A stretch of DNA of 14,279 bases from positions 1-14,279 of the forward strand of contig JABDLH010000192.1 of assembly GCA_013003145.1 (NCBI GenBank), in the 5' to 3' direction. A program made the translations under genes and the position numbers. The notes beneath the pieces are model-generated. The model saw nothing but the letters and a program-made list of their open reading frames with translations. It searched no databases and was not told the DNA's origin. Below, in pieces: positions 1 through 14,279 of this stretch. Source of the stretch: Flavobacteriaceae bacterium. GTDB taxonomy: Bacteria; Bacteroidota; Bacteroidia; Flavobacteriales; Flavobacteriaceae. The stretch's first letter is position 1. Each line of letters begins with the position of its first letter.

Positions 1-900
1 GAGTGGTTTTAACACGTAGTTCTCCAGGTCTAAACCTTCCGGGCGTTTATCCAGGTAATACGATGTTGGGATGTACTCGTGCTGCAGCATGGGCATGATC
101 GATTTAGAGATCAGGTTAAACCAATCAGGGTGTGAAATCCAGTTCACATCCAGGTCTTCGTTAAACCTGAAAGGTAATTGGAGGTCCGGGTATTGCAGCA
201 GGTCATCCTGGATCACCCGGTTGTATATCCTGCGTATGGGCACCTTCTTTCCATCTTTTTCATAGAAAAGCTGTCGCCCTTCTTTAAGTATTTTAGTGGC
301 ACAGACCACCTCTATCCCCAAAGCTTTTTTTGTGGCCCAGAAATCGATCCTCGTCTTCTGCTTTTCCGGGAAAAGCTCTAATAATATAACCTGCTCTTTG
401 GGTTGAGGCCCTAATATTACCTTTCTCATTTTCTCCAGGTAGGCTGTAGCAGTCATATCGCCGAAAAGGTAATCAAAGCGATCCACCGGTACGGCAGGAT
501 AAAATTTACGGTACGCTGCACCCAGATAGTTCTGGTACAGGAATAATGAAGGGAAAGCCTGAAGCTCTATCAGCTGCGGAACTAATTTTCCGTCGGCTCC
601 TGCGCATATCCCAAAATCGATCGCCAGGAAATGAGGGTCTTCCAAAGGTGTGTTACTGCGTAGCGTTTCGGGAATGTATTTTTCGCGAAGTGCGTAAAAA
701 TCCAGCTGATCTATCTGCTCAATGATGGCTTCACAGGCACTGAAGATCATCTCCTTGGTTTCTTTATTGATAAATACCGGGGTTTCAGAGATCCGGAAGC
801 CGGCCGGTTCATCAAACCTGGTTTTCATATCCTCGAGCAGCGCCTTGTATTGCGATTCGTCAAATGAATGGTTAAATGAGGCGCGTACTTCGGGTATCAT
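1..900 (-). CDS. Probable circularly permuted ATP-grasp-like protein (partial, C-terminus off left edge)
   Basis: The reading frame opens with ATG at 900 and stays open for exactly 300 codons to the window edge, so only the N-terminal part is visible. Its start overlaps the stop of the upstream amidotransferase gene by 4 bases (ATGA), which implies translational coupling. Visible motifs, in order: an acidic strand 'AIDFGI' near residue 95, then 'LIELQAFPSL' near 112, then 'VILLELFPEKQ' and 'RRIYNRVIQDD' further on, and finally 'NYVLKPL' at the edge, with Lys298 in the position expected for an ATP-binding lysine. This order (acidic metal-binding segment first, ATP-lysine segment last) is that of circularly permuted ATP-grasp proteins related to the DUF404/glutathionylspermidine synthase group. 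The family call is my inference from motif order; a hypothetical protein of another fold remains possible. If correct, it would form an amide bond at ATP cost, as the last visible enzyme of the amidoligase operon. Confidence 0.75.
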   Translation of the reverse strand, partial: MIPEVRASFNHSFDESQYKALLEDMKTRFDEPAGFRISETPVFINKETKEMIFSACEAIIEQIDQLDFYALREKYIPETLRSNTPLEDPHFLAIDFGICAGADGKLVPQLIELQAFPSLFLYQNYLGAAYRKFYPAVPVDRFDYLFGDMTATAYLEKMRKVILGPQPKEQVILLELFPEKQKTRIDFWATKKALGIEVVCATKILKEGRQLFYEKDGKKVPIRRIYNRVIQDDLLQYPDLQLPFRFNEDLDVNWISHPDWFNLISKSIMPMLQHEYIPTSYYLDKRPEGLDLENYVLKPL

Positions 901-1733
901 GCGGAGACATATTTTGATTGAACAATAGCATCGGTTGCATTCCGCAGAAATTGCGGAATCAGGATGCCGTGAGTCTTCAGGATCTTATCCTCATCTCTGA
1001 GGTGTAGCAACATTTCCTCAAACTTAGCTTCGCCCTTGTGCTTAATGATGAGTTTTTGTTTTTCTTCTTTCTGGAAGTGCATATGCATCCCGTCTGCATC
1101 GGCTTCGGGGTGAAACTGCACGCCGACGATCTCATCGGTAAAACGGATTGCCATGACCGCCCTTTCCAGGGGTACTTTCGGACGTTCTTTTTCCCTGCAA
1201 AGCACTTTAGCGCCAAAGGCGTTCATATTCTTCTGCCGTACCTCAACCACTTGGTATTCCCTGGAATCTACAGCGTAAAATGGGTCATCCAGGTCTTTAA
1301 GCAAAGGCTCTTCCTTTCCGTGGGCCGTCTTATGCACCGGCATGACACCAAAGGCCATAGAGCGTCTCTTCGTAATCTTTGCCAGTTTCCAGTGCTGGCA
1401 TGCCAACTGGAAGGAATGACAAATAAGGAACACATGTTTTTTATCCTCGCTCAGGGTATTGTGATCTTTCAGCTCATCCAGGAAAAGCTGGAATTCAGTT
1501 TCCCAGGTCTTCCCTGTGCTTTTTGGACTTCCGGGGCCGCCGGAACCGATAAAAATATCGAAATCCTCAATCTTGGGTAGTTTGTTATCCACCCTTACAT
1601 CAAAGACCTTGTATGTGCCATCTACTCCATCCTCTGCCAGGAAATTCTCCACGAGACTCCGGATACAACGCATCCCCTCGTTGGGTTCGCCGGCATTCAT
1701 ATCCAATACGGCTATTTTAATTAATTTCTTCAT
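897..1733 (-). CDS. Class I glutamine amidotransferase-like protein
   Basis: A 278-residue protein with a class I amidotransferase fold. An oxyanion-type loop 'GSGGPGSP' lies at about 63-70, the candidate nucleophile Cys105 sits in 'LICHSFQ', and the His208/Glu210 pair sits in 'VQFHPEAD', so the Cys-His-Glu triad is complete. The family releases ammonia from glutamine or hydrolyses gamma-glutamyl bonds; which applies here cannot be read. Cys105 is flanked by Ile and His instead of the usual glycine-rich GxCxGxQ setting. An in-frame ATG at 1754 would add seven residues (MLMKERV), but I chose 1733 because AAGGA lies 9-13 bases before it and an internal -7-like box lies just upstream. The gene follows the GCS2 ligase by 65 bp, and its last codons overlap the next gene by 4 bases. 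There is no signal peptide, so it is cytoplasmic. Co-transcription with three ligases suggests it feeds or edits an amide-bond pathway. Confidence 0.88.
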   Translation of the reverse strand: MKKLIKIAVLDMNAGEPNEGMRCIRSLVENFLAEDGVDGTYKVFDVRVDNKLPKIEDFDIFIGSGGPGSPKSTGKTWETEFQLFLDELKDHNTLSEDKKHVFLICHSFQLACQHWKLAKITKRRSMAFGVMPVHKTAHGKEEPLLKDLDDPFYAVDSREYQVVEVRQKNMNAFGAKVLCREKERPKVPLERAVMAIRFTDEIVGVQFHPEADADGMHMHFQKEEKQKLIIKHKGEAKFEEMLLHLRDEDKILKTHGILIPQFLRNATDAIVQSKYVSA

Positions 1734-1758
1734 CACTCGTTCCTTCATTAACAAGCTG

Positions 1759-1766
1759 CAAATCTA
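1759..1766 (-). promoter_or_regulatory. Internal -7-like promoter box before the amidotransferase gene
   Basis: On the minus strand the 65-bp gap between the GCS2 ligase and the amidotransferase contains TAGATTTG, an exact match to the Bacteroidota -7 consensus TAnnTTTG. It lies 25 bp ahead of the ATG at 1733. No convincing TTTG-type -33 element is found 19-21 bp upstream, so this may be chance in an AT-rich gap. Confidence 0.3.
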
Positions 1767-1798
1767 CGCATTATATAAGGTGCATCCCTTAATTTTAA

Positions 1799-2896
1799 CT
1801 AAAGCCCTTTAGATGTCTCGCAGATAATATAATCAACCACCTTCACCAGGTCACCGGTCTCATGGAAAACCTTTAACTGGCGATCCGCACCGGAGCCCTG
1901 TTCCAGCATTTGGTACACGTAATTCACCTCTCTCCGACAAGCGAGGTCATCCACTACATCATCGATAAAATCGAGCAACTCGATCATGAGGCTCTTAAAC
2001 GGCACTTCAGTTTCTTTCCCGAAATCGATCAGTTTGGCTTCTACACCATATCGTCCTGCTCTCCACTTATTCTCATTGATCAGGACACGCCTGTAGGTCC
2101 TGAAGCTCTGGTTCTTCCGGTGCAATTTGATTAGTTTGCAAATTATGCATTGCATCAACGCGGCAACACAAATTACCTCGTCCACGGTCATCATCATGTC
2201 GCAGATACGAAACTCCACCGTAGGGTAGAAAGGGTGCAGCCTTAAATCCCACCAGATCTTTTTCCCATTATCGATACACCCGGTTTTAACCAGCACGTTG
2301 ATAAACCTGTCATATTCTTCCACACTGGAGAAATAAGGGGGGATGCCTGTACGTGGGAATTTATCAAAAATCTTAGAGCGGAACGACTTAAATCCCGTCT
2401 CGTGACCTTCCCAGAAAGGGGAGTTGGTTGATAAAGCGTAGAGATGTGGTAAAAAATACCGGGCGACATTCATGATCTGCATGCCTTCTTCCCGGTTGGG
2501 GATGCCGACGTGGACGTGCATCCCAAAGATCAGGTTAGAACGGGCCACATCCTTCATTTCCTCTATAAGTTGATCATAGCGGGGGTCCGGAGTAATCAGC
2601 TGGTCCCTCCAATGCGAACAGGGGTGGGTGCCGGCAGCGGCAACTTTTAAGCCTTCGTTTGCAGCAAGGGCGATGATCTGCTGTCGCAGGTATGAAACCT
2701 CGTCCCGGGCCTGCTGAATGTTCTCGCAGATATTGGTTCCCATTTCCACCACAGATTGGTGCATTTCCTGTTTTATGCGTTCCTTGAGAATGATCTGTCC
2801 GTCCTTGATAATTTTAGACATCTGTGAACGCAACATCAGGCTATCGCCGTCCAGGATCTGAAATTCTTCTTCTATGCCCAGTGTGAACTTTTCCAT
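1799..2896 (-). CDS. GCS2-type carboxylate-amine ligase (YbdK-like)
   Basis: A full-length 365-residue cytoplasmic enzyme of the glutamate-cysteine ligase type 2 family, whose members condense the gamma-carboxyl of glutamate (or another carboxylate) with an amine using ATP. Seen motifs: 'GIEEEFQ' at 7-13 (metal-binding glutamates), 'SVVEMGT' at 48-54, 'GTHP' at 89-92, 'GMHVHVGI' at 125-132, 'STNSPFW.G..TG' at 156-168, 'PRTGIP' at 181-186, and 'LHPFYPTVEFRICD' at 220-233. All segments associated with activity appear intact and the length is normal for the family. Known members such as E. coli YbdK have weak glutamate-cysteine ligase activity in vitro, but the physiological substrate of most is unknown. 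It starts 21 bp after the stop of the ATP-grasp gene. The neighbouring ATP-grasp and amidotransferase genes argue for a dedicated metabolite pathway and not plain glutathione synthesis. Confidence 0.93.
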   Translation of the reverse strand: MEKFTLGIEEEFQILDGDSLMLRSQMSKIIKDGQIILKERIKQEMHQSVVEMGTNICENIQQARDEVSYLRQQIIALAANEGLKVAAAGTHPCSHWRDQLITPDPRYDQLIEEMKDVARSNLIFGMHVHVGIPNREEGMQIMNVARYFLPHLYALSTNSPFWEGHETGFKSFRSKIFDKFPRTGIPPYFSSVEEYDRFINVLVKTGCIDNGKKIWWDLRLHPFYPTVEFRICDMMMTVDEVICVAALMQCIICKLIKLHRKNQSFRTYRRVLINENKWRAGRYGVEAKLIDFGKETEVPFKSLMIELLDFIDDVVDDLACRREVNYVYQMLEQGSGADRQLKVFHETGDLVKVVDYIICETSKGL

Positions 2897-2917
2897 CGGA
2901 TGTTTTTTGGTCTGCTG

Positions 2918-4015
2918 TTATTTCTTTTTCGGGCTGCTCTTAGCCTTGGGAGCTGCCTTTTTTTTGGGAGTCGCTGCCTTTTTTGCTGCTACCTGCTTTT
3001 TAACCTCCGTTTTAGCAGCTTCTGAAGCTGACTTCAATCCCATACTCGATTTCCTGGGTGCAGGTCCGGAAACCGCCTCCTGCAGGAAGGTCCCCCAGGT
3101 ACAATTGTTTTTCTTGGCCTTGTAAGCCTTTGCTTTATCAATAGCCAGCTTGGCCGAGTGTTCCACGATCCAGTCAAAATTTTGCTGTCCTACCGAATTA
3201 ATATCCGCATCCGGGGCAGGGTTACAGAAATCTATGGCATAGGGAATACCGTTTCTCACAGCAAATTCTACGGTATTAAAGTCGTAGCCCAGGGCCTTGT
3301 TCAGTTTTATGGTCAGGTCGTGGATGGTCTTCATCAGTTTCTTATGTTCGTCCCCCTTAGTCTTTGGCTCCGTAGCATAACGCTGGTGAAATTCGTTCCG
3401 GGGTTCATAAGGCATGATATGTACATATTTCTGCCCCAGGCAGTACACCCTATAGTAATCATCAAAAACGATCTCTTCCTGTAGCATCATCACCAGCTGT
3501 TCAGTTTCACCGTGTTTGGCAAAAAGATCTTCCGGGCTATCCACCTTGTAAACGCTTTTCCATCCGCCTCCTGAATGTGGTTTCATATAGGCAGGGAAGC
3601 CGATATAGTCAAACATATAATCCCAATCCAACGGTGCCCTGAGATTGCGGAAAGATTTCTCAGAAGTGTCATCCGGCCTTTCTTTGGACGGCAGTAATAC
3701 CGTCTTAGGGACGGGAACACCCAATTTCACGGATAGACAGTTGTTAAAGAATTTCTCATCTGCACTCCACCAGAAAGGGTTGTTGATCACCGCAGTTCCC
3801 ATCAGGGCAGCATTTTTAAGGTAAGACCGGTAGAAGGGGACCTCCTGTGAGATCCGGTCTATGATCACGTGGTACCCATAGTCAATACCCTGTTGCACTT
3901 TATCTATCTGTACGGCTTCGGCCATGACCTTACCGTCTCCCATCTGGTTCACTCGCTCTATAAATGCCCATGGAAAAGTATCTTCCATTCCAAATAGTAT
4001 TCCGACTTTTTTCAT
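2918..4015 (-). CDS. ATP-grasp ligase with lysine-rich C-terminal tail
   Basis: A 365-residue protein. Residues 1 to about 310 form an ATP-grasp ligase: an N-terminal 'KKVGILFGMED' strand-loop, the ATP-binding Lys145 in 'AYMKPHSGGGWKSVYKV', a central 'LQEEI' hinge near 178-182, and the metal-binding set Glu250, Asp262 and Asn265 in 'VEFAVRNG...AIDFCNPAPD'. The family activates a carboxylate as an acyl phosphate and joins it to an amine, thiol or alcohol. Residues 320-365 are a separate low-complexity tail made of Lys, Ala, Pro and Ser with almost no acidic residues, like a histone H1 C-terminus; this is not part of the ATP-grasp fold. The DNA of the tail carries two A-runs matching the A-AAA-AAG slippery heptamer. 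The gene lies 27 bp after the esterase gene and 21 bp before the GCS2 ligase. Its substrate is unknown; it resembles small-molecule or peptide ligases more than D-Ala-D-Ala ligase. Confidence 0.9.
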   Translation of the reverse strand: MKKVGILFGMEDTFPWAFIERVNQMGDGKVMAEAVQIDKVQQGIDYGYHVIIDRISQEVPFYRSYLKNAALMGTAVINNPFWWSADEKFFNNCLSVKLGVPVPKTVLLPSKERPDDTSEKSFRNLRAPLDWDYMFDYIGFPAYMKPHSGGGWKSVYKVDSPEDLFAKHGETEQLVMMLQEEIVFDDYYRVYCLGQKYVHIMPYEPRNEFHQRYATEPKTKGDEHKKLMKTIHDLTIKLNKALGYDFNTVEFAVRNGIPYAIDFCNPAPDADINSVGQQNFDWIVEHSAKLAIDKAKAYKAKKNNCTWGTFLQEAVSGPAPRKSSMGLKSASEAAKTEVKKQVAAKKAATPKKKAAPKAKSSPKKK

Positions 4016-4042
4016 AATGTTTTGGTTTATTCTAGTTAATGA

Positions 4043-4753
4043 TCAAAAATAGCGGCCGATGTATTCGGGGAATACCATCTTCCAAAGGGGCCAGTCATGG
4101 TCTATCCATTGCTTTTCATCATACCAATAAGGAATTCCCTTATTGGCCAGGATGTTGGCCATATGTTCATTTTTTGGTTTACAGCTGTCCCAGTTAGAAG
4201 TGCTCAGCACTATTTGCATATGCATGAATTTCCATGACTCCTCATTCTGCATAAACTCGTCCGGGCAATTAAAGTAGATCCTCATGTCATCAGACAATGG
4301 GGTGAAGTTCCTGATGTTGAAGACCCCGGACATGGAAAAAAGGTGAGATACCAGGTCGGGTAAGCGGAAGGCTGTATTCGCCGCGTGGTAACCCCCGAAG
4401 CTAACGCCGGCTACGCCTATCCTATGTGTATTACATTCCTGTTGAATATAAGGGATAAGTTCATCTTTCAGGAATTGCATGTACAGTTCATAATTGTGGA
4501 TCTTCACTTCGGAAGAAAGATCGTCCGCGTAGAATGATAGCCCGTCTATAGTCTCTACGTTATATAGTTTGATCTTCCCCTGATCTATAAAATGCATTAC
4601 GGACTGGTTAAGTCCAAAATCACGGTTCTGGGTATAACTCCCGTATGATGAGGGGAACATTAGAATAGGGTGGCCCCAATGCCCGGTAATTTCCAAATTG
4701 ATATCACGCCCGAGAATATTGGAGTAATATTGTATATGTCTTGCTGTTGCCAT
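4043..4753 (-). CDS. Esterase-domain protein, COG4947-like alpha/beta hydrolase
   Basis: A 236-residue cytoplasmic alpha/beta hydrolase (no signal peptide). The N-terminus has the pattern 'YYSNILGRDINLEI.GHWGHPILMFPSS', typical of the COG4947 group of esterase-domain proteins. The nucleophile elbow is GVSFGG at 116-121 (Ser118), and 'DHDWPLW' near 218-224 supplies the likely catalytic His219. The acid residue is uncertain, with Asp189 as a candidate. Family members are distant relatives of esterase D and antigen 85, and their substrates are largely unknown. It is the first gene of the minus-strand ligase operon and lies directly downstream of a good Bacteroidota-type promoter that leaves almost no 5' leader. 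Its place in the operon suggests it hydrolyses or transfers an acyl group on the pathway's product or intermediate, which is inference. Confidence 0.87.
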   Translation of the reverse strand: MATARHIQYYSNILGRDINLEITGHWGHPILMFPSSYGSYTQNRDFGLNQSVMHFIDQGKIKLYNVETIDGLSFYADDLSSEVKIHNYELYMQFLKDELIPYIQQECNTHRIGVAGVSFGGYHAANTAFRLPDLVSHLFSMSGVFNIRNFTPLSDDMRIYFNCPDEFMQNEESWKFMHMQIVLSTSNWDSCKPKNEHMANILANKGIPYWYDEKQWIDHDWPLWKMVFPEYIGRYF

Positions 4754-4758
4754 TATCT

Positions 4759-4789
4759 TAAATGTAGCTTATTTTACATTCTTTAACAA
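4759..4789 (-). promoter_or_regulatory. Promoter of the ligase operon (-33 TTG, -7 TACATTTA)
   Basis: On the minus strand TTG (4787-4789) is separated by exactly 20 bp from TACATTTA (4759-4766). This fits the Bacteroidota arrangement TTTG-N19-21-TAnnTTTG with one mismatch in the -7 box. The -7 box ends only 5 bases before the ATG at 4753, so transcripts would be leaderless or nearly so. Confidence 0.55.
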
Positions 4790-4828
4790 CTAATTACCTC
4801 GTACTGAAGCATTTTTGTTAGCTGTCGG

Positions 4829-4861
4829 GTTCGGATAAATTCCCGGGAATAAGTATACTTG
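4829..4861 (+). promoter_or_regulatory. Weak candidate promoter for the divergent esterase gene
   Basis: TATACTTG (4854-4861) is one base off TAnnTTTG and stands 17 bases before the ATG at 4879. A degenerate -33 (GTTCGG, 4829-4834) lies 19 bp upstream of it. The better TTTTTG at 4812-4817 is 36 bp away, too far to pair with this box. The 125-bp gap 4754-4878 holds both divergent promoters and no other recognisable element. Confidence 0.3.
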
Positions 4862-4878
4862 CACTTATATAGCCGATC

Positions 4879-5742
4879 ATGTCGTTTGAAATTGATATCA
4901 TAAGCCTGAAAGGGCGTTTTTATTCCAAGAATCTTAAGAGAAAAGTAGTATTCCGCTGGGTGGCCCCGGCCGATTACCAGAAAGAAGGGGGAACATTCCC
5001 GGTGCTCCTGATGAATGACGGGCAGGATTTCAGGGCTATGACCCTGGAAAACACCCTCATCAATGCCTTTAATGATGCCACCCTGAGTCCTTTTATATAT
5101 ATTGGGATAGAGACTGATCATCGCAGGATGCAGGAATACGGGATTTCAGGTTCTCCAGATTATAAGGGCCGAGGCGAGCGGGCCACAGCTTACAGCAAGT
5201 TTATCATCGAAGAGTTTATTCCTTTTCTTCAACGGGAATTCAAGGTGTCTGATAAAGCAGCAGACTGGGTTTTCTGCGGGATGTCCCTCGGAGGACTATC
5301 TGCCTTTGACATCGCCTACTCCCACCCTGATCATTTCAGGGGAATAGGGGTTTTCAGCGGTTCATTTTGGTGGCGCGATAAGGCCTATGTTCCGGGGGAT
5401 CTTGAAGATAGGAGCAGGATGGTACTCAAACTGGTAGAGGACAATCCCATGGCCGAAGATATGCGGTTCTGGTTTCAGTGCGGCACCCAGGACGAAATTG
5501 CAGACAGGAATAAAAACGGCGTGATCGACGCCATAGACGATACAAAAGATCTTATCCGCGAATTACAGAAAAAGGGATATAGCTACCCGGGGGATATCGC
5601 ATACGTTGAGGTAAAAGGCGGGCGACACGACCTTCCTACCTGGGCAAGAGTCTTCCCTGATTTCCTGAAATGGGCTTTCCCGGTGACCAAAGAGGTGCCG
5701 GTGAGTATTCCCGTTGAGACTGGCCCTCCGTCTAAATCCTGA
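4879..5742 (+). CDS. Esterase D/Fes-type alpha/beta hydrolase with EF-hand-like loop
   Basis: The only plus-strand gene: a 287-residue alpha/beta hydrolase of the putative esterase family (PF00756 type), without a signal peptide. 'PVLLMNDGQDF' at 41-51 is the typical early strand and oxyanion region. GMSLGG at 134-139 is the nucleophile elbow (Ser136), 'CGTQDE' at 201-206 offers the acid Asp205, and 'GGRHDLPTW' at 247-255 provides His250, so the triad looks complete. Right after the acid strand comes a 12-residue loop, Asp209 to Asp220 (DRNKNGVIDAID), with EF-hand spacing of Asp/Asn ligands and the central Gly; it could bind calcium. The family includes enterochelin esterases, feruloyl/acetyl esterases and mycolyltransferases. 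The substrate is unknown here. It diverges from the ligase operon across a shared 125-bp promoter gap, suggesting co-regulation, and converges with the acetyltransferase gene with 7 bp between stops. Confidence 0.9.
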   Translation: MSFEIDIISLKGRFYSKNLKRKVVFRWVAPADYQKEGGTFPVLLMNDGQDFRAMTLENTLINAFNDATLSPFIYIGIETDHRRMQEYGISGSPDYKGRGERATAYSKFIIEEFIPFLQREFKVSDKAADWVFCGMSLGGLSAFDIAYSHPDHFRGIGVFSGSFWWRDKAYVPGDLEDRSRMVLKLVEDNPMAEDMRFWFQCGTQDEIADRNKNGVIDAIDDTKDLIRELQKKGYSYPGDIAYVEVKGGRHDLPTWARVFPDFLKWAFPVTKEVPVSIPVETGPPSKS

Positions 5743-5749
5743 TTAGTTA

Positions 5750-6838
5750 TCAAACCTTTATAAAGATCTTCTTCCTGTACATAATATAGGCGAGCAGCAG
5801 GTAAAAAGCGGTAACACTTAATCCATACAGCAGTGAAGAAGTTTTAAGAGAAATTGATTCGTAGACGAACAGCGTCTTGTAGAGCCAGCCGTGAACCGAG
5901 TTACTTTCAGATACCCTGACCAGGTAAAAAAGTTTGGTGAAAAAGCTGGAGAGGAAATAAATGGTTATGGCATTGGCACCTGCGTATCTGAATATACTTC
6001 CAAACCGGTATCCTTTTACATCAGTGAGATAATAGATAAGGGCAAGTAAAAGGTTAGCCCAGCCTGCAGTTACCAAAACATAACTACTGGTCCATAGCGG
6101 TTTATTGATAGGGAAAAATACATCCCAGATGTGGCCGGTCAATAGTAAACCGAATCCCATCAGGGCCAGTATACCGACCTTTGCACTCCTCTTAGAGATC
6201 AAAATACGACCTGTAAATATTCCCAGCAAGGCAGATACAATAGCCGGGAAAGTGCTCAGTATTCCTTCGGGGTCATAATCTTCCTTATACATATGCGTGC
6301 CCAGCACATTGAGATCTATGTAATTAGCCCAGTTGTTGGGAGCTCTTTCATAGGTTGGCGCCACCCCGTCTATAGGGATATAGCCCAGCCATACCCAATA
6401 TCCCAGGAGTATGATAACGCTTACGGCCAGGATCACTCGCCAGTTGGTGTAGAGGTAGAGCAATGCCGCGAAAAAAAATACGATCCCGATACGTTGCAGC
6501 ACCCCGGGAAATCGTATCGACTCAAAATCCTTGAAAAAAGGAAAGGTGATGGTGAATGCCCCGAGGAATAATCCCAAGCCGATCAACTTAAGGCTTCGGA
6601 TACTGATCTTACTCAAGCTGGCGCCGTCGGGTTTTCGGTCCCTGTATGCCAATACTATTGAAGTACCCACGATGAACAGGAAAAAGGGAAACACCAGGTC
6701 TGTAGGCGTATACCCGTGCCACTGTGCATGCAGGAAGGGAGCATACACATGTTCCCAGTTGCCGGGAGTGTTTACAAGGATCATCAGGGCGATGGTGAGG
6801 CCCCGGAATATGTCTACCGAAATAATTCGTTCTTTCAT
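5750..6838 (-). CDS. HGSNAT/NagX-type membrane acetyltransferase (COG4299)
   Basis: A 362-residue polytopic inner-membrane protein with about ten hydrophobic segments. Diagnostic segments: 'SVDIFRGLTIALMILVN' at 7-23, 'HAQWHGYTPTDLVFPFF' at 37-53, 'DPEGILSTFPAI' at 189-200, and 'NKPLWTSSYVLVTAGW' at 245-260. These match the family of human heparan-alpha-glucosaminide N-acetyltransferase (HGSNAT) and bacterial NagX/DUF5009 proteins. His37 aligns by eye with the active-site histidine of HGSNAT, which carries acetyl from cytoplasmic acetyl-CoA to glucosamine across the membrane. The bacterial activity is not firmly established. It starts 4 bp after the stop of the symporter gene, so the two are co-transcribed and probably translationally coupled. 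In this carbohydrate cluster it may acetylate an amino sugar during uptake or processing; that is inference. Confidence 0.9.
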   Translation of the reverse strand: MKERIISVDIFRGLTIALMILVNTPGNWEHVYAPFLHAQWHGYTPTDLVFPFFLFIVGTSIVLAYRDRKPDGASLSKISIRSLKLIGLGLFLGAFTITFPFFKDFESIRFPGVLQRIGIVFFFAALLYLYTNWRVILAVSVIILLGYWVWLGYIPIDGVAPTYERAPNNWANYIDLNVLGTHMYKEDYDPEGILSTFPAIVSALLGIFTGRILISKRSAKVGILALMGFGLLLTGHIWDVFFPINKPLWTSSYVLVTAGWANLLLALIYYLTDVKGYRFGSIFRYAGANAITIYFLSSFFTKLFYLVRVSESNSVHGWLYKTLFVYESISLKTSSLLYGLSVTAFYLLLAYIMYRKKIFIKV

Positions 6839-6842
6839 ATCA

Positions 6843-8675
6843 TCAGAGAATATCGCCCCTTAGCCTGTTCCAAATAAGCTTTAACAGCACTGCGGCAATG
6901 ATAACGACTACAGTTAATATACTGGCCAGGGTATAATTGCCATAGATCCAGTTCCCGGTGGCAAACATACATCCGTACACCAGTATGCAGCCTACGATCA
7001 TCGCAAGGATACCTGAAGGAACCGTCCATTCTTCATTCCTATTTACGATCTGTACATCTTCTGCACGGGAAGAATCGATGATCTTTTTCCAACCCGGTCC
7101 TCCCGGTTGCGTTTGCTTATAAAATTCGTATAAAGTCTCTTTGGTCTCCGGCCTGGTCAGGAAGGTCACCGTCACCCAGACTATGGTAGTGATCAGAACT
7201 ACTGCCGGGAACCTGGCCCATCCCGGGAAGATTCCCTCTGCCTCAACACCAAAGGTGTCTACCCCACCAAAGAGGTAGGGCCCTAAGGAGGTCATGCTGA
7301 AAAGTATGGATATGATCCCCGAGCTGAACATAGCAGAGATCTCGCTCCAGGCATTGATCCTCCACCAGAACCAACGCAGTATAAAAATCAACCCGGTACC
7401 GGCTCCGAACATCAGGATGATATCAAAAAGCTGCAGGGCATTGGTAAGGTATAGGGCAAAGATTGCACTGGCTACCATCAGGATAACGGTAGTGATTCGC
7501 CCCACGAGTACCAGCTCTTTCTCAGTAGCATCCGGTTTCAATTGTTGTTTGTAAAAATCATTCACCACGTAGGAAGAACCCCAATTAAGGTGAGTTGAGA
7601 TCGTTGACATATATGCAGCTCCAAGCGAAGCCATAACTAAGCCGAGCAAACCGCTGGGTAGCTTAGTCAGCATTGCGGAATACGCCAGGTCATTCCCCAA
7701 CTTACTCTCCTCTATATTTGGAAACGCTTCCTGAATACTGGCTACATCGGGAAAGACCACCATAGAAGCGAGGGCTACGAGGATCCAGGGCCAGGGCCTG
7801 AGTGCATAGTGCATGATATTGAAAAAGAATGTGGCACCAATGGCGTGGTTCTCATTCTTTGCTGCGAGCATACGCTGGGCAATATAACCCCCTCCTCCCG
7901 GTTCAGCACCCGGGTACCAAGCGCTCCACCATTGTACGGCAAGGGGGATGACCAGTATCCCGATCAGGGCTTCAGTATCAGAAAAATCGGGGAGGATGGA
8001 TAACTTTCCCGCTACATTCTCATGGGCAATAAGTGCACTTACCCCACCTACCTCGGGTAGGTTGACCAGGTAATAAGCCGCCCCTACAGCACCGATAATA
8101 GCGACGAAAAAAAGGACAAAATCTGTATATATTACTCCCCTGAAACCACCGGCCGCACTGAATATGACGGTAACCGTACCCCCGATAAGTACCGTTTCTA
8201 CGGGCGTGAGGCCTAACATGATCTGCCCGATCTTTATAGCCGCCAGGGTCACGGCAGACATCGCCATGATATTAAAAGCGATACCCAGGTAAACTGACCT
8301 GAAACCCCTTAAGAAATGAGCGGGCTTGCCCCCGTAGCGCAGATCGTAAAACTCCATATCGGTCTTTACATTAGACCTTCTCCAAAGCTTTGCATAGACG
8401 AACACGGTCAATAAACCGGTGAGCAGGAAGGCCCACCAAATCCAGTTCCCTGAAACCCCGTTGGTCCGGACGATATCCGTAACCAGGTTGGGCGTGTCTG
8501 TTGAAAAAGTAGTTGCCACCATGGAAAAACCAAGCAGCCACCAGGGCATATTCCTGCCGGAGAGGAAGAATTCTGTAGTGTCTTTTCCGGATTTGCGGGA
8601 TACCCAGATTCCTATGGCGAGAACAAGGGCGAAGAACCCGATAATGATTACATAATCAAGGGTGCTTAATTGCAT
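6843..8675 (-). CDS. Sodium:solute symporter (SSS family)
   Basis: A 610-residue inner-membrane transporter with about 14 hydrophobic segments. The N-terminus 'LDYVIIIGFFALVLAIGIW' is TM1, and 'FFLSGRNMPWWLLGFSM' at 36-52 is the family's signature early loop. 'YMSTISTHLNWGSSYVVNDF' at 355-374 matches the TM8 segment carrying the sodium-site serines in SSS transporters. A cytoplasmic stretch near 505-555 precedes two final TM helices (about 553-573 and 582-602), so it is slightly longer than the SGLT core. SSS members co-import Na+ with sugars, sialic acid, amino acids and similar solutes; the solute is not predictable from the motifs. The gene sits between the secreted hydrolases and the HGSNAT-like gene, which suggests import of the released sugar. 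It has its own candidate promoter 25-60 bp upstream and ends 4 bp before the acetyltransferase start. Confidence 0.95.
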   Translation of the reverse strand: MQLSTLDYVIIIGFFALVLAIGIWVSRKSGKDTTEFFLSGRNMPWWLLGFSMVATTFSTDTPNLVTDIVRTNGVSGNWIWWAFLLTGLLTVFVYAKLWRRSNVKTDMEFYDLRYGGKPAHFLRGFRSVYLGIAFNIMAMSAVTLAAIKIGQIMLGLTPVETVLIGGTVTVIFSAAGGFRGVIYTDFVLFFVAIIGAVGAAYYLVNLPEVGGVSALIAHENVAGKLSILPDFSDTEALIGILVIPLAVQWWSAWYPGAEPGGGGYIAQRMLAAKNENHAIGATFFFNIMHYALRPWPWILVALASMVVFPDVASIQEAFPNIEESKLGNDLAYSAMLTKLPSGLLGLVMASLGAAYMSTISTHLNWGSSYVVNDFYKQQLKPDATEKELVLVGRITTVILMVASAIFALYLTNALQLFDIILMFGAGTGLIFILRWFWWRINAWSEISAMFSSGIISILFSMTSLGPYLFGGVDTFGVEAEGIFPGWARFPAVVLITTIVWVTVTFLTRPETKETLYEFYKQTQPGGPGWKKIIDSSRAEDVQIVNRNEEWTVPSGILAMIVGCILVYGCMFATGNWIYGNYTLASILTVVVIIAAVLLKLIWNRLRGDIL

Positions 8676-8705
8676 GGTTGGTCTGGTATTGGTCAGTCCT
8701 TAAAG

Positions 8706-8738
8706 ATATTATATTTTACATATAACCTCTTTTCAAAA
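8706..8738 (-). promoter_or_regulatory. Candidate promoter for the symporter-acetyltransferase pair
   Basis: In the 119-bp gap 8676-8794, the minus strand has TTTTG (8734-8738), 20 bp, then TATAATAT (8706-8713). This is a reasonable -33/-7 spacing for Bacteroidota and would give a leader of about 25 bases to the ATG at 8675. An overlapping alternative -7 box, TATCTTTA (8701-8708), lacks a properly spaced -33. No hairpin terminator for the upstream gene was recognised in the gap. Confidence 0.4.
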
Positions 8739-8794
8739 TTCACCGAATACCTAGCGTATTTTACCGTGCTTAAATCTTAGTAAGGCTTTTATAC

Positions 8795-9640
8795 TTATGG
8801 TAAGAATCTCAGCCTGGCCACTACAGGGAAGTGATCCGAAGGATACCTCCCGTTGACCGTTTCGCTGATAATGCGGTAACGCTGAACAGAGAAATCACCG
8901 GGTGATAAAAAAATGTAATCGATTCTCCTCGTCGGTAATTCATCCATATTAAACCCATTATAGGTGCCTGTGGGTCCTTTAAAATCGGTTGGAGCTAATT
9001 CGTGGGCGTCTTTCATTTCGCCGGAAAGTTGTTTTATGGAGGGGTGGTCCGGTTCAAGGTTAAAATCGCCCATCAGGATCACGGGATATTGATCCGTGTT
9101 CAATGTCTTTACTTTTTCCATTATGAGCTCCAGACTTTTTTGCCGTGCTATTTCGCCCATATGATCCAGGTGGGCATTAAAGACATAAAATTTCTTATCC
9201 CCATCCTGGGTATTAAAAAGCCCGTAAGTACATACCCGGTTCAGGGCCGCGTCCCAGCCAACGGAGGGGATATCCGGAGTTTCGGACAGCCAGAAGGTTC
9301 CCTGGTCAAGGAGGCGGAGTTGGTCCTTTTTGTAAAACACCGCGGAATATTCGCCCCGCTGATCTCCGTGGTCCCGGCCTTTTCCAAAATAATCATAATT
9401 GGGCAGGGCATTGGCAAGTTCTTCCAATTGATGATGCAGACCTTCTTGGGTTCCAAAAACGTCCGGTGCAAGGAAGTGCACTTGGGAAGATAAAAAGGCA
9501 CTGCGCTGTTCCCATCCATCCAGGCTGTCCTTGGGATTGTCATACCTGATATTATAGGTCATCACAGACAGATCCTGGCTCTTAACGATACCGCTCATTA
9601 ATACCAGGATTATTAAAAGCTTTTTATTCATTGTATGCAT
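8795..9640 (-). CDS. Secreted endonuclease/exonuclease/phosphatase (EEP) family hydrolase
   Basis: A 281-residue protein of the EEP fold, which cleaves phosphoester bonds in nucleic acids, lipids or inositol phosphates using a divalent metal. A signal peptide, hydrophobic at about 7-18 and ending '...GIVKSQ', places it outside the cytoplasm. Motifs in order: 'TYNIRYDN' at 28-35 (Asn30), 'GTQEG' at 63-67 (metal Glu66), 'NAHLDH' at 155-160 (His157), 'MGDFN' at 190-194 (Asp192, Asn194), 'RRIDYIF' at 238-244 (Asp241), and 'PSDHFPV' at 267-273 (Asp269, His270). The catalytic set looks complete. An alternative start at 9631 (MNKKLL) would drop three residues and gives an equally good signal peptide. 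It starts 5 bp after the sulfatase stop, so it belongs to the glycan operon. Such EEP genes are common beside glycan-degradation genes in Bacteroidota, but their substrate there is not known to me. Confidence 0.92.
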   Translation of the reverse strand: MHTMNKKLLIILVLMSGIVKSQDLSVMTYNIRYDNPKDSLDGWEQRSAFLSSQVHFLAPDVFGTQEGLHHQLEELANALPNYDYFGKGRDHGDQRGEYSAVFYKKDQLRLLDQGTFWLSETPDIPSVGWDAALNRVCTYGLFNTQDGDKKFYVFNAHLDHMGEIARQKSLELIMEKVKTLNTDQYPVILMGDFNLEPDHPSIKQLSGEMKDAHELAPTDFKGPTGTYNGFNMDELPTRRIDYIFLSPGDFSVQRYRIISETVNGRYPSDHFPVVARLRFLP

Positions 9641-9645
9641 AGCTG

Positions 9646-11283
9646 CTAGTTTCCTCTTAATCTCCTGAAATTACGATATGCCTGCTTAACTTCCGCATCT
9701 GATGCCTGCTCAAATTCTTTCTCGGTCACCCCGTAAGCCTGCTGTACACTATCCAGCTTGGCATGCATCATTTCAGAAATTTCATGGTATTCCGGGTCAT
9801 TGATCAGGTTTTTATGTTCCCCCGGGTCTTGTTGCAGGTCATATAATTCCCATTCATCTATATCGTCATAAAAATGGATCAATTTATAGCGTTTGGTGCG
9901 AATGCCATACTGTTTTTTGACCATATGGAAAGCAGGGTAATCGTAATAATGGTAATATACTACATCCCGGTTGTTATCCGGACTACCTGTTCCTGTGAAC
10001 AGCGTTGCAAAAGATGCCCCCTGCATCTCCGAAGTATCATCAGATGCCCCTGCAAGCTCCAGGAATGTCGGCGCAAAATCGAGATTCTGCACCATGGTCT
10101 CTTCCACTTTCCCCGGAGGTATTACCCCGGGCAGTTGCATCAGTAATGGCATCCTCAGTGATTCCTCGTACATGAACCGCTTGTCAAACCAGCCATTCTC
10201 GCCAAGATAAAACCCCTGGTCAGAGGTGTACACCACCAATGTGTTTTCATCCATTCCAGTGGCTTCCAGGTAATCCAGTAATTGCCCCACTCCTTCATCT
10301 ACAGAAGCCACGGTAGCCATATAATCCTGTAAGTATCGCTGCCCTTTCCAGCGATCCAGTTCCCTGCCCTGGAGGTTTGCCCTGTGCATAGCGTCATTTT
10401 TGGGCTGGTATGCCTCATCCCATTGTGTGCGTTGTTCAGGTGTCATCCGGTCAAAGTCCGTGGTCCACGGGTTGTGGGCCAGGGTGGTCTCTCCCAGCCC
10501 GGTAGACATTTTCAGGTCGTGTCCCTCGTACATATCCTCGTAAATGGTCTGCTGTTGTTCCTGTGCTGCTACCTGGTTGACGAACTTGGGAAAATACGAG
10601 TCCGGTAGCGGGAAATGAACAGAATCATACAAGTTCAAATGGCGGGGAGCAGGCATCCAGTTCCGGTGTGGCGCCTTATGATGAAGCATCAGGAAAAATG
10701 GTTCTTCCCGACCTTGTTGTTCCTTTAACCAGGAAAGACCCTTGTTGGTAATGATATCCGTAACATATCCTTCAATTATGGTAGTATCCTGTCCTTTAAT
10801 AAATTCCGGGTTGTAATAATTCCCTTGGTCGTTCACGATCTCCCAGTGGTCAAAACCGGTGGGTTCTCCATGAAGATGCCATTTCCCGATCACCGCAGTA
10901 CGGTAACCCTTGTCCCTTAAATATTTTGGCAGCGTTGCCTGGTTCCCATTAAATTGTTCCCCGTTCATTCGGAAACCGTTGACATGGCTGTGTTTCCCTG
11001 TCAGGATCACTGCACGGCTGGGACCACAAATAGCATTGGTACAAAAGGCATTAGTGAACCGCATCCCGTTCTTTGCGATCCGGTCAATATTGGGAGTCGG
11101 AGCTTTTTTTGAGAGTGGATGTCCGTAGGAGCTGATCGCCTGGGCCGCATGATCATCAGACATGATAAAAATGATATTCGGCCTCAGCGGTGGCGCTGTT
11201 TCTGCTTTCTTTTCTTCACCACAAGACGCTATGGCAAAGGCCAGGCAAGTGAAGATCATCCAAGGTTTATACTTTAAATCCAT
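9646..11283 (-). CDS. Lipoprotein sulfatase, S1 family, resembling GlcNAc-6-O-sulfatases
   Basis: A 545-residue type I sulfatase. The N-terminus is a lipoprotein signal peptide with the lipobox 'AIASC' (Cys21), so the enzyme is probably membrane-anchored. 'IMSDDH' at 40-45 gives metal ligands Asp43/Asp44. 'CGPSR' at 86-90 is the C-x-P/S-x-R signature whose Cys86 must be converted to formylglycine, followed by 'LTGKHSH' at 94-100 (Lys97, His99). 'GKWHLHG' at 133-139 contains Lys134/His136. 'TSDQGFYLGENGWFDKR' at 353-369 supplies Asp355 and Lys368. The overall pattern, with 'SYGHPLSKKAPTPNIDR' before the active site, resembles the S1_11-type N-acetylglucosamine-6-sulfatases such as human GNS, but subfamily and substrate are inference. 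A formylglycine-generating enzyme or anaerobic maturase must be encoded elsewhere. The gene lies 19 bp after the GH3 gene and 5 bp before the EEP gene. Confidence 0.95.
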   Translation of the reverse strand: MDLKYKPWMIFTCLAFAIASCGEEKKAETAPPLRPNIIFIMSDDHAAQAISSYGHPLSKKAPTPNIDRIAKNGMRFTNAFCTNAICGPSRAVILTGKHSHVNGFRMNGEQFNGNQATLPKYLRDKGYRTAVIGKWHLHGEPTGFDHWEIVNDQGNYYNPEFIKGQDTTIIEGYVTDIITNKGLSWLKEQQGREEPFFLMLHHKAPHRNWMPAPRHLNLYDSVHFPLPDSYFPKFVNQVAAQEQQQTIYEDMYEGHDLKMSTGLGETTLAHNPWTTDFDRMTPEQRTQWDEAYQPKNDAMHRANLQGRELDRWKGQRYLQDYMATVASVDEGVGQLLDYLEATGMDENTLVVYTSDQGFYLGENGWFDKRFMYEESLRMPLLMQLPGVIPPGKVEETMVQNLDFAPTFLELAGASDDTSEMQGASFATLFTGTGSPDNNRDVVYYHYYDYPAFHMVKKQYGIRTKRYKLIHFYDDIDEWELYDLQQDPGEHKNLINDPEYHEISEMMHAKLDSVQQAYGVTEKEFEQASDAEVKQAYRNFRRLRGN

Positions 11284-11302
11284 ATAACAAATGGGGTAGT
11301 AA

Positions 11303-13582
11303 TTAATTAATGAGTTTAAATCCAGCTTTCAGCGTCTGTTCGGAATTTCCGCCGACATACACCTCAAAGTCCCCGGGTTCTGAAACAAATTCGATCTGGC
11401 TGTTATAGAATTTTAGATCCTCCGCTTGCATGGTGATACTCACATCGACAGAAGCTCCCTTCTCAATCTTGACCTTTTTAAAGCCCTTGAGTTGCTTTGA
11501 AGGCGGGGTGATAGACCTCACCAGGTCTCTCAGGTATAACTGCACAACTTCTTCCCCGTCATAATCACCTGTATTCTTTACGGTCACTGTTGCTGTAATG
11601 GTCTCTCCCTGCCCTATTTCCGGTTTGTTTAAGCGCAGGTCACTATATTCAAAATCGGTATAACTCAGTCCATACCCAAATGGATAAAGGGGCGTATTTG
11701 GAGCGTCCAGGTAATTGGATTTAAATTTCTGGAATTCACTGTCCGGACCAGGTCTCCCGGTGATCTTTGCACTGTGGTAAATCGGGATCTGCCCCACGTT
11801 CCTGGGCCAGGTGGCCGTAAGTTTCCCGGCGGGATTATACTCCCCGTACAATACTTCAACAATGGCGTTACCTGCTTCCACACCCGGGTGCCAGGTCTGT
11901 AGAATGCTGACCGGCAATTGGGACTCATCCGCTATGGTCAATGGACGCCCGCTCATCAATACGACAACAACAGGTTTGCCGGTATCGACAAGGGCTTTTA
12001 GTAATTTCTTCTGGCTTGGAGGCAGGGAAAGGTCTGTCCTGCTGGCGGCCTCACCACTCATTTCCGTAGCCTCTCCTAATACGGCAACAACCACATCCGA
12101 TGCATTAGCCAGTTCAACGGCCTCTTCCAGCAATTCTGTAGGTTCCTGCTCTGCGATCTGTACCCTGGGGCCAAAAACATTTACCTTTTTGGCCAATTCA
12201 ACATCATCCGTAATATTGGCTCCTTTAGCATAACTGACAGCTACATCAGGCATGGATTTCCTGAAACCCTCCAATACCGGGATGGCGTTTTTCACATCCC
12301 CTGTAGGAGCCCAGGTCCCAAGCATATTATTCTGGCTGTCCGCCAGTGGCCCTACCAATGCAATTTTAGCCGTAGGATCTAAAGGCAGGGTATTTCCGTG
12401 TTTTTTAAGCAGTACAAAGGTCTTCTTTGCAATCTCCTTAGCTGCTTCCCGGTGTTCAGGGCTCAGTATATCTTTTGCGGGCCTGCTCTCGTCCAGGTAG
12501 CGATAAGGGTCCTGGAAAAGACCCAGCCTGAATTTAGCTTCCAGGATACGCCTTGCCGCGATGGTAATCGATTCTTCGGACACTTTTCCTTCTTTTACGG
12601 ATTTCTCCAAAGTGGTTAAAAAGCCTTCCCCGACCATATCCATATCCAGGCCTGCATTGAGTGCCAGGGCCGAAACTGCCTGCAGGTCCCCGAGCCCATG
12701 GGCGATCATTTCATTGACAGAGGTATAGTCTGACACTACCATCCCGCTAAACCCCCATTGGTCTCGCAGAAGATCTGTCAATAACCATTTGTTACCCGAA
12801 GCCGGAACTCCGTCTATATCATTGAACGAGGTCATCACACTGGCAACACCCTCGTCCACAGCTGCTTTATATGGCGGCAGGTATTGGTTGAACATTTTTA
12901 TGCGGCTCATATCGACCGAGTGATAGTCTCTCCCCGCTTCTGCAGCACCATAAAGCGCCAAATGTTTAACTGTTGCCATCATGGTATTGGGTTCAGAGAG
13001 GTCATCTCCCTGGTAGCCCCTTACCATTGCCCTGGCAACCATAGATCCCAGGTATGGATCCTCACCGGCTCCTTCGGCTATTCTTCCCCACCTCGGATCA
13101 CGGGCGATATCTACCATGGGTGAGAAATTCCAGTTGATCCCATCCGCAGTGGCTTCCCTGGCCGAAATCCTTGCAACTTCTTCCATGAGCTGCATGTCCC
13201 AACTCGCTGATAAGCCCAGCGGGATTGGGAAAGTAGTTTTATAGCCATGGATAACATCTGAACCAATGAGCAGTGGAATTTTTAAACGCGAATGATTAAC
13301 GGCCAGTTCCTGGGCAACTCTTACCCGCTCCGGACCCGCAACTCCGAAAAGTCCGCCAACCTGTCCCTTCCTGATCTTTGTTTCAACATTTTCACTAACT
13401 ACAGAACCAGTCGCTACACCTCCACCCGGAGTCAGCAGGTTCAGCTGACCGATTTTTTCCTGCAGGGTCATTTCCCCAAGTAGTTCCTCTACTTCCGGTA
13501 TACGTTCCTGGGCCCCAATACCGTGTATAGACAGTAGTGATAGCGTAAAGATGATGCTGTATATTTTCAGGTATTCTATCAT
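11303..13582 (-). CDS. bglX: Periplasmic beta-glucosidase, GH3 (BglX type)
   Basis: A 759-residue secreted glycoside hydrolase family 3 enzyme, close in length to E. coli BglX (765 residues). A signal peptide ends at '...GIGAQ' (about residue 25). The (beta/alpha)8 domain spans about 30-375: 'IPLLIGSDVIHG' at 102-113, 'RDPRWGRIAEGAGEDP' at 161-176, 'VKHLALYG' at 205-212, and 'MVVSDYTSV' at 281-289 with nucleophile Asp285. The alpha/beta sandwich follows; 'MSGEAASRTDLSLP' at 508-521 holds Glu511, a candidate acid/base. 'LYPFGYGLSYT' at 632-642 leads into a C-terminal fibronectin-III-like domain (about 655-750). The family releases terminal beta-linked glucose, or sometimes xylose or N-acetylglucosamine, from oligosaccharides; the sugar is not fixed by these motifs. 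It starts 17 bp after the discoidin-FnIII gene and ends 19 bp before the sulfatase. Confidence 0.95.
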   Translation of the reverse strand: MIEYLKIYSIIFTLSLLSIHGIGAQERIPEVEELLGEMTLQEKIGQLNLLTPGGGVATGSVVSENVETKIRKGQVGGLFGVAGPERVRVAQELAVNHSRLKIPLLIGSDVIHGYKTTFPIPLGLSASWDMQLMEEVARISAREATADGINWNFSPMVDIARDPRWGRIAEGAGEDPYLGSMVARAMVRGYQGDDLSEPNTMMATVKHLALYGAAEAGRDYHSVDMSRIKMFNQYLPPYKAAVDEGVASVMTSFNDIDGVPASGNKWLLTDLLRDQWGFSGMVVSDYTSVNEMIAHGLGDLQAVSALALNAGLDMDMVGEGFLTTLEKSVKEGKVSEESITIAARRILEAKFRLGLFQDPYRYLDESRPAKDILSPEHREAAKEIAKKTFVLLKKHGNTLPLDPTAKIALVGPLADSQNNMLGTWAPTGDVKNAIPVLEGFRKSMPDVAVSYAKGANITDDVELAKKVNVFGPRVQIAEQEPTELLEEAVELANASDVVVAVLGEATEMSGEAASRTDLSLPPSQKKLLKALVDTGKPVVVVLMSGRPLTIADESQLPVSILQTWHPGVEAGNAIVEVLYGEYNPAGKLTATWPRNVGQIPIYHSAKITGRPGPDSEFQKFKSNYLDAPNTPLYPFGYGLSYTDFEYSDLRLNKPEIGQGETITATVTVKNTGDYDGEEVVQLYLRDLVRSITPPSKQLKGFKKVKIEKGASVDVSITMQAEDLKFYNSQIEFVSEPGDFEVYVGGNSEQTLKAGFKLIN

Positions 13583-13599
13583 GGTAAGCTTTTTAATAT

Positions 13600-14279
13600 C
13601 TATTCTGTTTCAATAATCTTCACACGTTCAGAGAGCCCGTTTTCATTATAGGCTTCAATGGTGAAATAGTAGTTTTGATCTGTATTCAGGGATTTCAGCT
13701 CCAGGGAAGTTTCCCCGTATAACTGCCAGCTGCTGTACATCTTGTCCGGGGCTATTCCCCAGATTACATTATAACCCGTAGCTCCTTTTACCGGGCTCCA
13801 GCTGATCCGGGCATCCCGGCGGTCTTCATTTCGGTCTACCTTAAAATTCTTCACTTTTTTTGGAGCCTTGCCATTGCCTTTACCAAATACGCGCAGGTCT
13901 GATATCGCCAGGTTCCCGGTAGGAACATGGAGATTTTTAAACCGTATAAAACGCGCAGATACCGGGGCTTCTAAAGCGACGTAATCATTAGGTACGTCCT
14001 GCTTATTCTCGCTTTTGTCCACTAGTATTTCCCACTGCTCCCCGTCTTTGGAACCTTGTATAATATACTGGTGGTAAAGGCCAGGAACCTTGCCGTATAA
14101 ATCTGACTTGTAATCGTGGTAATTTACCTGGAAGGCGCGAACTTCAGAAACAGCTTCGAGGACCATTTGTATCCATTCTCCTTCTCCATTCGTTTCGGCC
14201 ACCCAAAAACTCTTGATGTTTTCATCTACCAGGTTTTCCGCGGTAAACCCATCCTTAGATGAAGAAGTCTTAACGGGTT
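13600..14279 (-). CDS. C-terminal part of a protein with F5/8C (discoidin) and fibronectin-III domains (N-terminus off right edge)
   Basis: The frame is open from the right edge to TAG at 13600-13602, giving 225 visible residues; the start lies outside. Residues about 5-130 form an F5/8 type C (CBM32-like) domain: 'AENLVDENIKSFWVAE', then 'GEWIQMVL', 'DLYGKVPGLYHQYIIQGS', 'DGEQWEIL', 'ARFIRFKNLHVP' and 'ISDLRVFG'. Residues about 138-225 form a fibronectin-III domain with 'RDARISWSPVKGATGYNVIWG' near its start and 'YYFTIEAYNENGLSE' near its end. This two-domain ending is familiar from Bacteroidota secreted glycosidases, GH43-type proteins in particular, so the missing part is probably a catalytic domain; that is inference. 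The discoidin domain likely binds a sugar. GTG at 14202 is not the real start, because homology to the F5/8C domain continues upstream of it. It is the first visible gene of the glycan operon, 17 bp before GH3. Confidence 0.85.
   Translation of the reverse strand, partial: PVKTSSSKDGFTAENLVDENIKSFWVAETNGEGEWIQMVLEAVSEVRAFQVNYHDYKSDLYGKVPGLYHQYIIQGSKDGEQWEILVDKSENKQDVPNDYVALEAPVSARFIRFKNLHVPTGNLAISDLRVFGKGNGKAPKKVKNFKVDRNEDRRDARISWSPVKGATGYNVIWGIAPDKMYSSWQLYGETSLELKSLNTDQNYYFTIEAYNENGLSERVKIIETE

Follow-up and report, generated by a model that had tools for sequence, protein, structure and literature searches.

Predicted amidoligase operons are a known kind of system: Iyer et al. (2009) reportedly predicted operons in which ATP-grasp and glutamine-synthetase-like ligases are combined with peptidases. 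Linked ligases in multiple instances are also mentioned in an excerpt of PMC4431377. Here we analyze an operon of five minus-strand genes at positions 1..4753 of a 14,279-nucleotide stretch (the window) of Flavobacteriaceae bacterium assembly GCA_013003145.1; the window is the whole of contig JABDLH010000192.1 (C127) of a draft genome with 309 contigs, 68% complete. The genes encode, in order, an alpha/beta-hydrolase esterase (EST1), an ATP-grasp ligase of RimK/LysX fold (GRASP), a GCS2-type carboxylate-amine ligase (GCS2), a protein of class I glutamine-amidotransferase fold (GAT) and an ATP-grasp ligase of glutathione (GSH)-synthetase/GspS fold (CPgrasp).

The closest described systems resemble parts of this operon. 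As in glutathione biosynthesis, a GCS2-family ligase is paired with a GSH-synthetase-fold ATP-grasp ligase, but the operon GCS2 lies far below the glutamate-cysteine ligase equivalog cut-offs (58.6 of 249 bits for TIGR02048, 37.4 of 463 bits for TIGR01436), and the operon adds a third ligase, the GAT-fold protein and esterases. It differs from glutathionylspermidine synthetase/amidase and from E. coli YgiC/YjfC in that CPgrasp has 12-15% identity to GspS and YgiC/YjfC and stays below the gathering cut-off of Pfam GSP_synth PF03738 (the first member, with the best E-value, reaches 17.8 of 29.3 bits; at E 0.1, matches are seen for 4 of the 8 members); unlike in the synthetase/amidase, the hydrolase is a separate gene, either GAT or a Peptidase_M29 protein (M29). 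GRASP resembles the RimK and LysX/ArgX glutamate ligases in fold, yet falls below the RimK family cut-off (TIGR00768; 31.4 of 143.4 bits). The E-64 type ligase Cp1B, which acts on epoxysuccinate and L-amino acids, differs in belonging to a fungal pathway whose described amide steps are carried out by Cp1B and an ANL-family enzyme. Among the titles and abstract starts listed from open-licence literature (CC0, CC BY, CC BY-SA), no description of this exact gene set or of the GAT/M29 exchange was found, and we know of no product of this gene set.

Gene content of the operon

A preliminary description of the window had proposed a five-gene minus-strand operon in which three ATP-dependent amide ligases serve one pathway. 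The operon is real: its five open reading frames (ORFs) were all found where that description had placed them, with gaps of 27, 21, 65 (for the GAT start codon at 1733) and -4 bp, and the proposal of three ligases is supported by one GCS2 and two ATP-grasp enzymes. The nearest named locus among the best 80 of 570 confirmed candidates is that of Zeaxanthinibacter enoshimensis (L024), with identities of 98% for EST1, 93% for GRASP, 97% for GCS2, 82% for GAT and 89% for CPgrasp.

GCS2 (1799..2896, minus strand) is a carboxylate-amine ligase of the PRK13515 group. It is a member of NCBIfam NF010039 (551 bits, cut-off 371), scores 222 bits against Pfam PF04107 (cut-off 21) and stays below the YbdK equivalog NF010040 (247 of 425 bits). 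The GhExE metal/ATP signature of GCS2-type ligases, as given in an excerpt of PMC2588565, is kept, with G7, E9, E10 and E11 invariant in all ten aligned sequences.

GRASP (2918..4015, minus strand) is closest in fold to RimK by Z, with RimK and LysX/ArgX as the nearest folds. Its C-terminal tail, rich in Lys and Ala, comprises 55 residues (311-365; window 2918-3085, minus strand). Histone-H1-like tails of ~32-129 residues, rich in Lys, Ala, Pro and Thr, were seen in L011-L025 where measured and in L070, L075, L083, L088, L131, L133 and L139; the tail has 12-17 residues in a few loci and 4-5 in the measured Weeksellaceae loci.

CPgrasp (1..900, minus strand) is partial: the window holds the first 300 of ~398 residues, and the contig end falls just within the K-P-L of the loop that binds ATP. 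The preliminary description had called this protein a probable ATP-grasp enzyme and held that the single-pathway idea falls if it lacks that fold. The family does show a GSH-synthetase-type ATP-grasp fold, with fold-comparison scores of 26.4 for YgiC, 26.3 for YjfC, 24.7 for GspS and 23.8 for human GSH synthetase. A sequence search of PDB entries with the 1-900 protein yielded nothing beyond chance matches to aspartic proteases (E 0.13), and both CPgrasp and GRASP fell below every Pfam and NCBIfam cut-off scanned. An excerpt of PMC12568646 names YgiC/YjfC peptidylpolyamine synthetases, and the title of its reference 48 presents them as peptide-spermidine ligases.

The first operon gene, EST1 (4043..4753, minus strand), scores 39.5 bits against Pfam PF00756 (cut-off 22), and its Ser118/Asp189/His219 are invariant in 9/9 aligned sequences. 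A second PF00756 esterase, EST2 (4879..5742, plus strand; 86.5 bits), diverges from the operon and is possibly part of the same system; it lies divergent from EST1 within 400 bp in 23 of the 71 complete named loci. The 125-bp divergent region between them (4754..4878, no strand assigned) is the likely control region. The pattern TTTG-N17..23-TANNTTTG, which we take to be a Bacteroidota-type promoter pattern, had no match in the window, with 0.46 expected by chance.

Conservation of gene order and co-occurrence

To compare gene order, we used the 80 named loci, which were searched with the window proteins, are mostly from Chryseobacterium and kin, and bear organism names taken from record titles. 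Their ORFs were called by simply picking the longest frames, which got some genes wrong (e.g. GCS2 and GAT in L021), so that cluster counts are approximate, and ORFs <70 aa were not called in the clustering. The order EST1-GRASP-GCS2-GAT-CPgrasp on one strand was found in 71 of the 80 loci, with median gaps of 55, 30, 35 and 81 bp (64-68 pairs each). These 71 include Maribacter, Muriicola, Eudoraea and Aureibaculum, which we take to be Flavobacteriaceae; Chryseobacterium, Epilithonimonas and Elizabethkingia, presumably Weeksellaceae; Hymenobacter, Spirosoma, Arcicella and Larkinella, assigned by us to Cytophagales; and Chitinophaga. Three or four of the genes stand in order in four more loci: L019 (a contig of 3955 bases), L081, L082 and L087. 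Two of these, L082 and L087, carry Spartobacteria/Verrucomicrobia labels, and Spartobacteria-labelled L082 has two GCS2 genes in tandem (5509-7873).

We then searched 345 Bacteroidota genomes with CPgrasp, GAT, GRASP, GCS2 and EST1 profiles, counting 344 after exclusion of the window's own. CPgrasp was found in 102, GAT in 75, GRASP in 117 and GCS2 in 114 genomes; CPgrasp, spread over 25 family labels, co-occurred with GRASP in 98 and with GCS2 in 97 genomes, and GRASP with GCS2 in 100 (Fisher p <1e-50 for each pair, N=345, relatedness ignored). All three ligases were present in 93 genomes, 55 with GAT and 38 without it, and a further 38 genomes carried one or more of the four genes in other combinations. 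EST1, matched in at least 142 of 345 genomes at 1e-20, lies outside the co-occurrence table.

Co-location, which the preliminary description had made a test of the single-pathway idea, stood in many families and did not in others. In families such as f37, f39, f42, f43 and f62, the ligase genes occur at separate sites, which in drafts are mostly different contigs; in G101 and G117, the ligase matches share one contig and are distant from each other. The genes still co-occur in such lineages, and the set kept where its genes are scattered supports a shared function.

Exchange of GAT for a metallopeptidase

GAT (897..1733, minus strand) scores 40.2 bits against Pfam PF00117 (cut-off 22.8). Its triad Cys105-His208-Glu210, numbered with the 1733 ATG as start (positions 103/206/208 of alignment A5), is intact and kept in 9/9 aligned sequences; the Pfam GATase match and the triad together place it among class I glutamine amidotransferases. 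A profile search of PDB with GAT found nothing at 1e-3.

Other lineages carry M29 in this slot. In Verrucomicrobia-labelled L087, a protein matching Peptidase_M29 (52.8 bits, cut-off 27) lies between GCS2 and CPgrasp, and M29 takes the GAT position in Bacteroidota families f34, f45, f49, f53 and f61 (L112, L126, L127, L128, L136 and L137) and, judged by coordinates, in G304. When an operon-type M29 profile was run against 152 genomes, strong matches (E <=1e-160; next best 3e-37) were found in eight genomes, all among the 38 with CPgrasp, GRASP and GCS2 but without GAT. There were none in the 75 GAT-bearing genomes, in the window's own genome or in the 38 other genomes searched (8/38 vs 0/75, Fisher p 1e-4, relatedness ignored). 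The gene lies between GCS2 and CPgrasp in seven of the eight and elsewhere in G262.

That a metallopeptidase stands in for a Cys-triad protein is most easily explained if the slot hydrolyses an amide, and GAT is likely a peptide or gamma-glutamyl hydrolase. The preliminary description had offered two roles for it, ammonia supply and removal of a glutamyl group. The first is downgraded because an M29 aminopeptidase occupies the same slot in seven sampled genomes without GAT, a displacement that would argue against a glutaminase feeding ammonia to a synthase; removal of a glutamyl or aminoacyl group fits better.

Recurrent additions and neighboring genes

The core five genes of the preliminary description are accompanied in several lineages by a pair that it had not seen, an M17 aminopeptidase together with a third ATP-grasp enzyme (ATPG3), present in 48 of the 80 named loci. 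Among solved structures, L-amino acid ligases are closest to ATPG3 in sequence (4wd3, 5.6e-14). The pair lies upstream of EST1 in Weeksellaceae and downstream, on the opposite strand, in L059, and it converges on the operon in G016 (L110) and G280 (L139), so its adjacency survives rearrangement. It is absent from G000-G003, the window's genus. A Lys-rich GRASP tail does not substitute for these genes, as G280 carries both.

GAT and GRASP without CPgrasp were found in 15 genomes, of which ten were inspected (L091-L096, L114, L116-L118). All ten have a relative of the CP_ATPgrasp_2-like L091/L092 protein beside GRASP or GAT, in nine of them between the two; G343 has GAT on another contig. The L091 protein scores 37.3 of 32 bits in Pfam, and that of L092 is below the cut-off. 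In this variant operon, GRASP is followed by the CP_ATPgrasp_2-like gene, which occupies the position of GCS2, and next by GAT; EST1 usually comes first, and several loci also have a Fes-like esterase. Many of the recurrent additions are amide-bond ligases or peptide/ester hydrolases, a make-and-trim pattern that points to a small peptide or amide.

Several other genes were observed next to CPgrasp. A class III aminotransferase abuts it in L072 (4913-6106) and L077, follows it in L078 and lies near it in L083 and L090; in NCBIfam it scores best as ArgD-like and lower as putrescine aminotransferase, all below cut-off. In family f43, a sodium:solute symporter (SSF) gene precedes CPgrasp (L111, L113, L141, L142). 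The two form one open frame of 867 residues in G182 (L111 2637-5240) and are separate neighbors with a stop between them in L142, so the joined frame of L111 may reflect a missing stop, and the adjacency recurs; in L113 and L141 the frame breaks inside the symporter part. In 10-11 related loci (L013, L015, L016, L018, L020, L022 and similar; gene clusters 19 and 16), riboflavin-synthase-like (opposite strand) and PdxA-like genes, named by eye, lie just downstream of CPgrasp. Downstream of the operon in L035 (10899-15700) are a cyanophycin synthetase on the opposite strand, a cyanophycinase and an Asparaginase_2-family gene; in Chryseobacterium-type loci, this cyanophycin block adjoins the operon or stands a few genes off.

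A proposed pathway

The conserved order and the co-occurrence make a single shared pathway highly probable, in keeping with the preliminary description. We lean, with some reserve, towards the five genes and divergent EST2 forming one dedicated non-ribosomal peptide or amide pathway that makes a gamma-glutamyl peptide conjugate akin to glutathione or glutathionylspermidine; taken by itself, the glutathione/GspS-like nature of the product is tentative. Such a conjugate was judged the most likely product because the enzymes closest in fold to the core ligases use substrates of glutamate or glutathione type and because YgiC/YjfC are reported as peptide-spermidine ligases in the title noted above. 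GCS2 would link an amine or amino acid to the gamma-carboxyl group of glutamate, and GRASP would add a further residue, probably acidic. CPgrasp may cap the peptide carboxylate, either with an amino acid or with an amine, which might be a polyamine. GAT or M29 would hydrolyse one of these bonds, deprotecting an intermediate or recycling the product, and the esterases may take off an ester or acyl group.

Several observations weigh against this proposal. GCS2 is absent from all four sampled CPgrasp-positive genomes of family f19, where compact operons retain EST1-GRASP-GAT-CPgrasp (L131, L132) or GRASP-GAT-CPgrasp (L133), and CPgrasp and GAT lie apart in the fourth genome, G233 (L134, L135); since f19 keeps the operon without GCS2, a GCS2-made gamma-glutamyl bond is not obligatory. 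The fold of CPgrasp does not give its substrate, because YgiC is without glutathionylspermidine synthase activity according to an excerpt of PMC12506659. An Arg like that of Cp1B, two positions ahead of the catalytic Asp, is not apparent in CPgrasp (A93-I94-D95), and Glu-x-Asn appears as Glu-x-Gln. Only 32 of the 55 four-gene genomes have the genes within 8 kb of GCS2, and 30 of the 38 genomes without GAT also lack operon-type M29. CPgrasp is patchy among the nearest relatives, being present in 3/3 congeners and in only 2 of 33 sampled genomes from other genera of the window's own family.

Alternative explanations

An improbable alternative to the gamma-glutamyl conjugate is polyglutamylation, in which GCS2 and GRASP would build an oligo- or polyglutamyl chain on a cofactor or metabolite, CPgrasp would cap it, and GAT would trim it like folate gamma-glutamyl hydrolase, an enzyme of class I GAT fold. 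RimK and LysX/ArgX, the nearest GRASP folds, are glutamate-type ligases; the Lys-rich GRASP tails of many lineages could hold a polyanion; and ATP-grasp enzymes are proposed in an excerpt of PMC8141765 as builders of the methylofuran polyglutamate chain. However, the tail has only 4-5 residues in the measured Weeksellaceae loci, and cofactor genes (riboflavin synthase-like, PdxA-like and biotin carrier-like, by eye) appear among the 40 commonest clusters in only 9-11 loci of one related group.

It is quite unlikely that the ligases instead modify a protein, as RimK does RpsF or as PafA, a GCS2 relative, attaches Pup, with aminopeptidases or GAT removing the tag. The RimK fold of GRASP would suit such a role, but the nearest folds of CPgrasp act on small peptides and amines, and the 40 commonest clusters, in which ORFs <70 aa were not called, include no small conserved ORF located within the core operon; a 78-aa cluster in 24 loci lies within the cyanophycin block.

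We regard it as very unlikely that the operon serves a cyanophycin-like amino-acid reserve. Cyanophycin genes are frequent in the named loci (cphA in 31/80, cphB in 27/80, an Asparaginase_2 gene in 26/80), all 31 cphA loci are of the M17/ATPG3 type, CphA scores 1267 bits (cut-off 850), an Asparaginase_2 relative (32% identity) lies beside the variant operon in L091, and a full-length relative of CphA is also encoded in G016 and G378, away from the operon. Yet in the named loci these genes form one synteny block in one family. The cyanophycin pathway was downgraded because full-length CphA is absent from the window's genus, G000-G003 (68% complete for G000, 99-100% for G001-G003), which gave only weak matches, as did G027, G071 and G164.

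Least probable of all, unrelated enzymes might share a transcript by chance or regulation, as the dispersed copies in several families and the five named loci with CPgrasp but without the other four genes (L072, L080, L084, L085, L089) could suggest, but gene order is kept across many genera and co-occurrence is kept where the genes are dispersed.

Remainder of the window

Positions 5750-14279 form a carbohydrate region, apparently separate from the operon, with an HGSNAT-like acyltransferase, an SSF transporter, an endonuclease/exonuclease/phosphatase-family protein, a sulfatase with an SGSH C-terminal domain, a GH3 glycosidase and an F5/8 type C-fn3 protein interrupted by the contig end. No RNA element at Rfam gathering level and no tRNA was found in the window. 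A role in anti-phage defence was rejected (0 PADLOC families at E 1e-3 for six proteins), as was plasmid spread (GRASP had no match among 72,556 plasmids at 1e-10).

Implications

If the proposed steps hold, the operon may represent an undescribed class of molecules widespread in Bacteroidota, although this is speculative: an amine-capped, possibly polyamine-capped, gamma-glutamyl peptide made by GCS2, RimK-fold and GSH-synthetase-fold ligases and turned over by a hydrolase of interchangeable type, GAT-fold or M29. This molecule would be a bacterial counterpart to glutathionylspermidine and trypanothione, and in at least one lineage the CPgrasp substrate might be imported by the adjacent SSF symporter. 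The exchange between GAT and M29 is a clue to which bond is cleaved, and the conserved set of ligases and hydrolases makes the missing metabolite searchable by comparative metabolomics.

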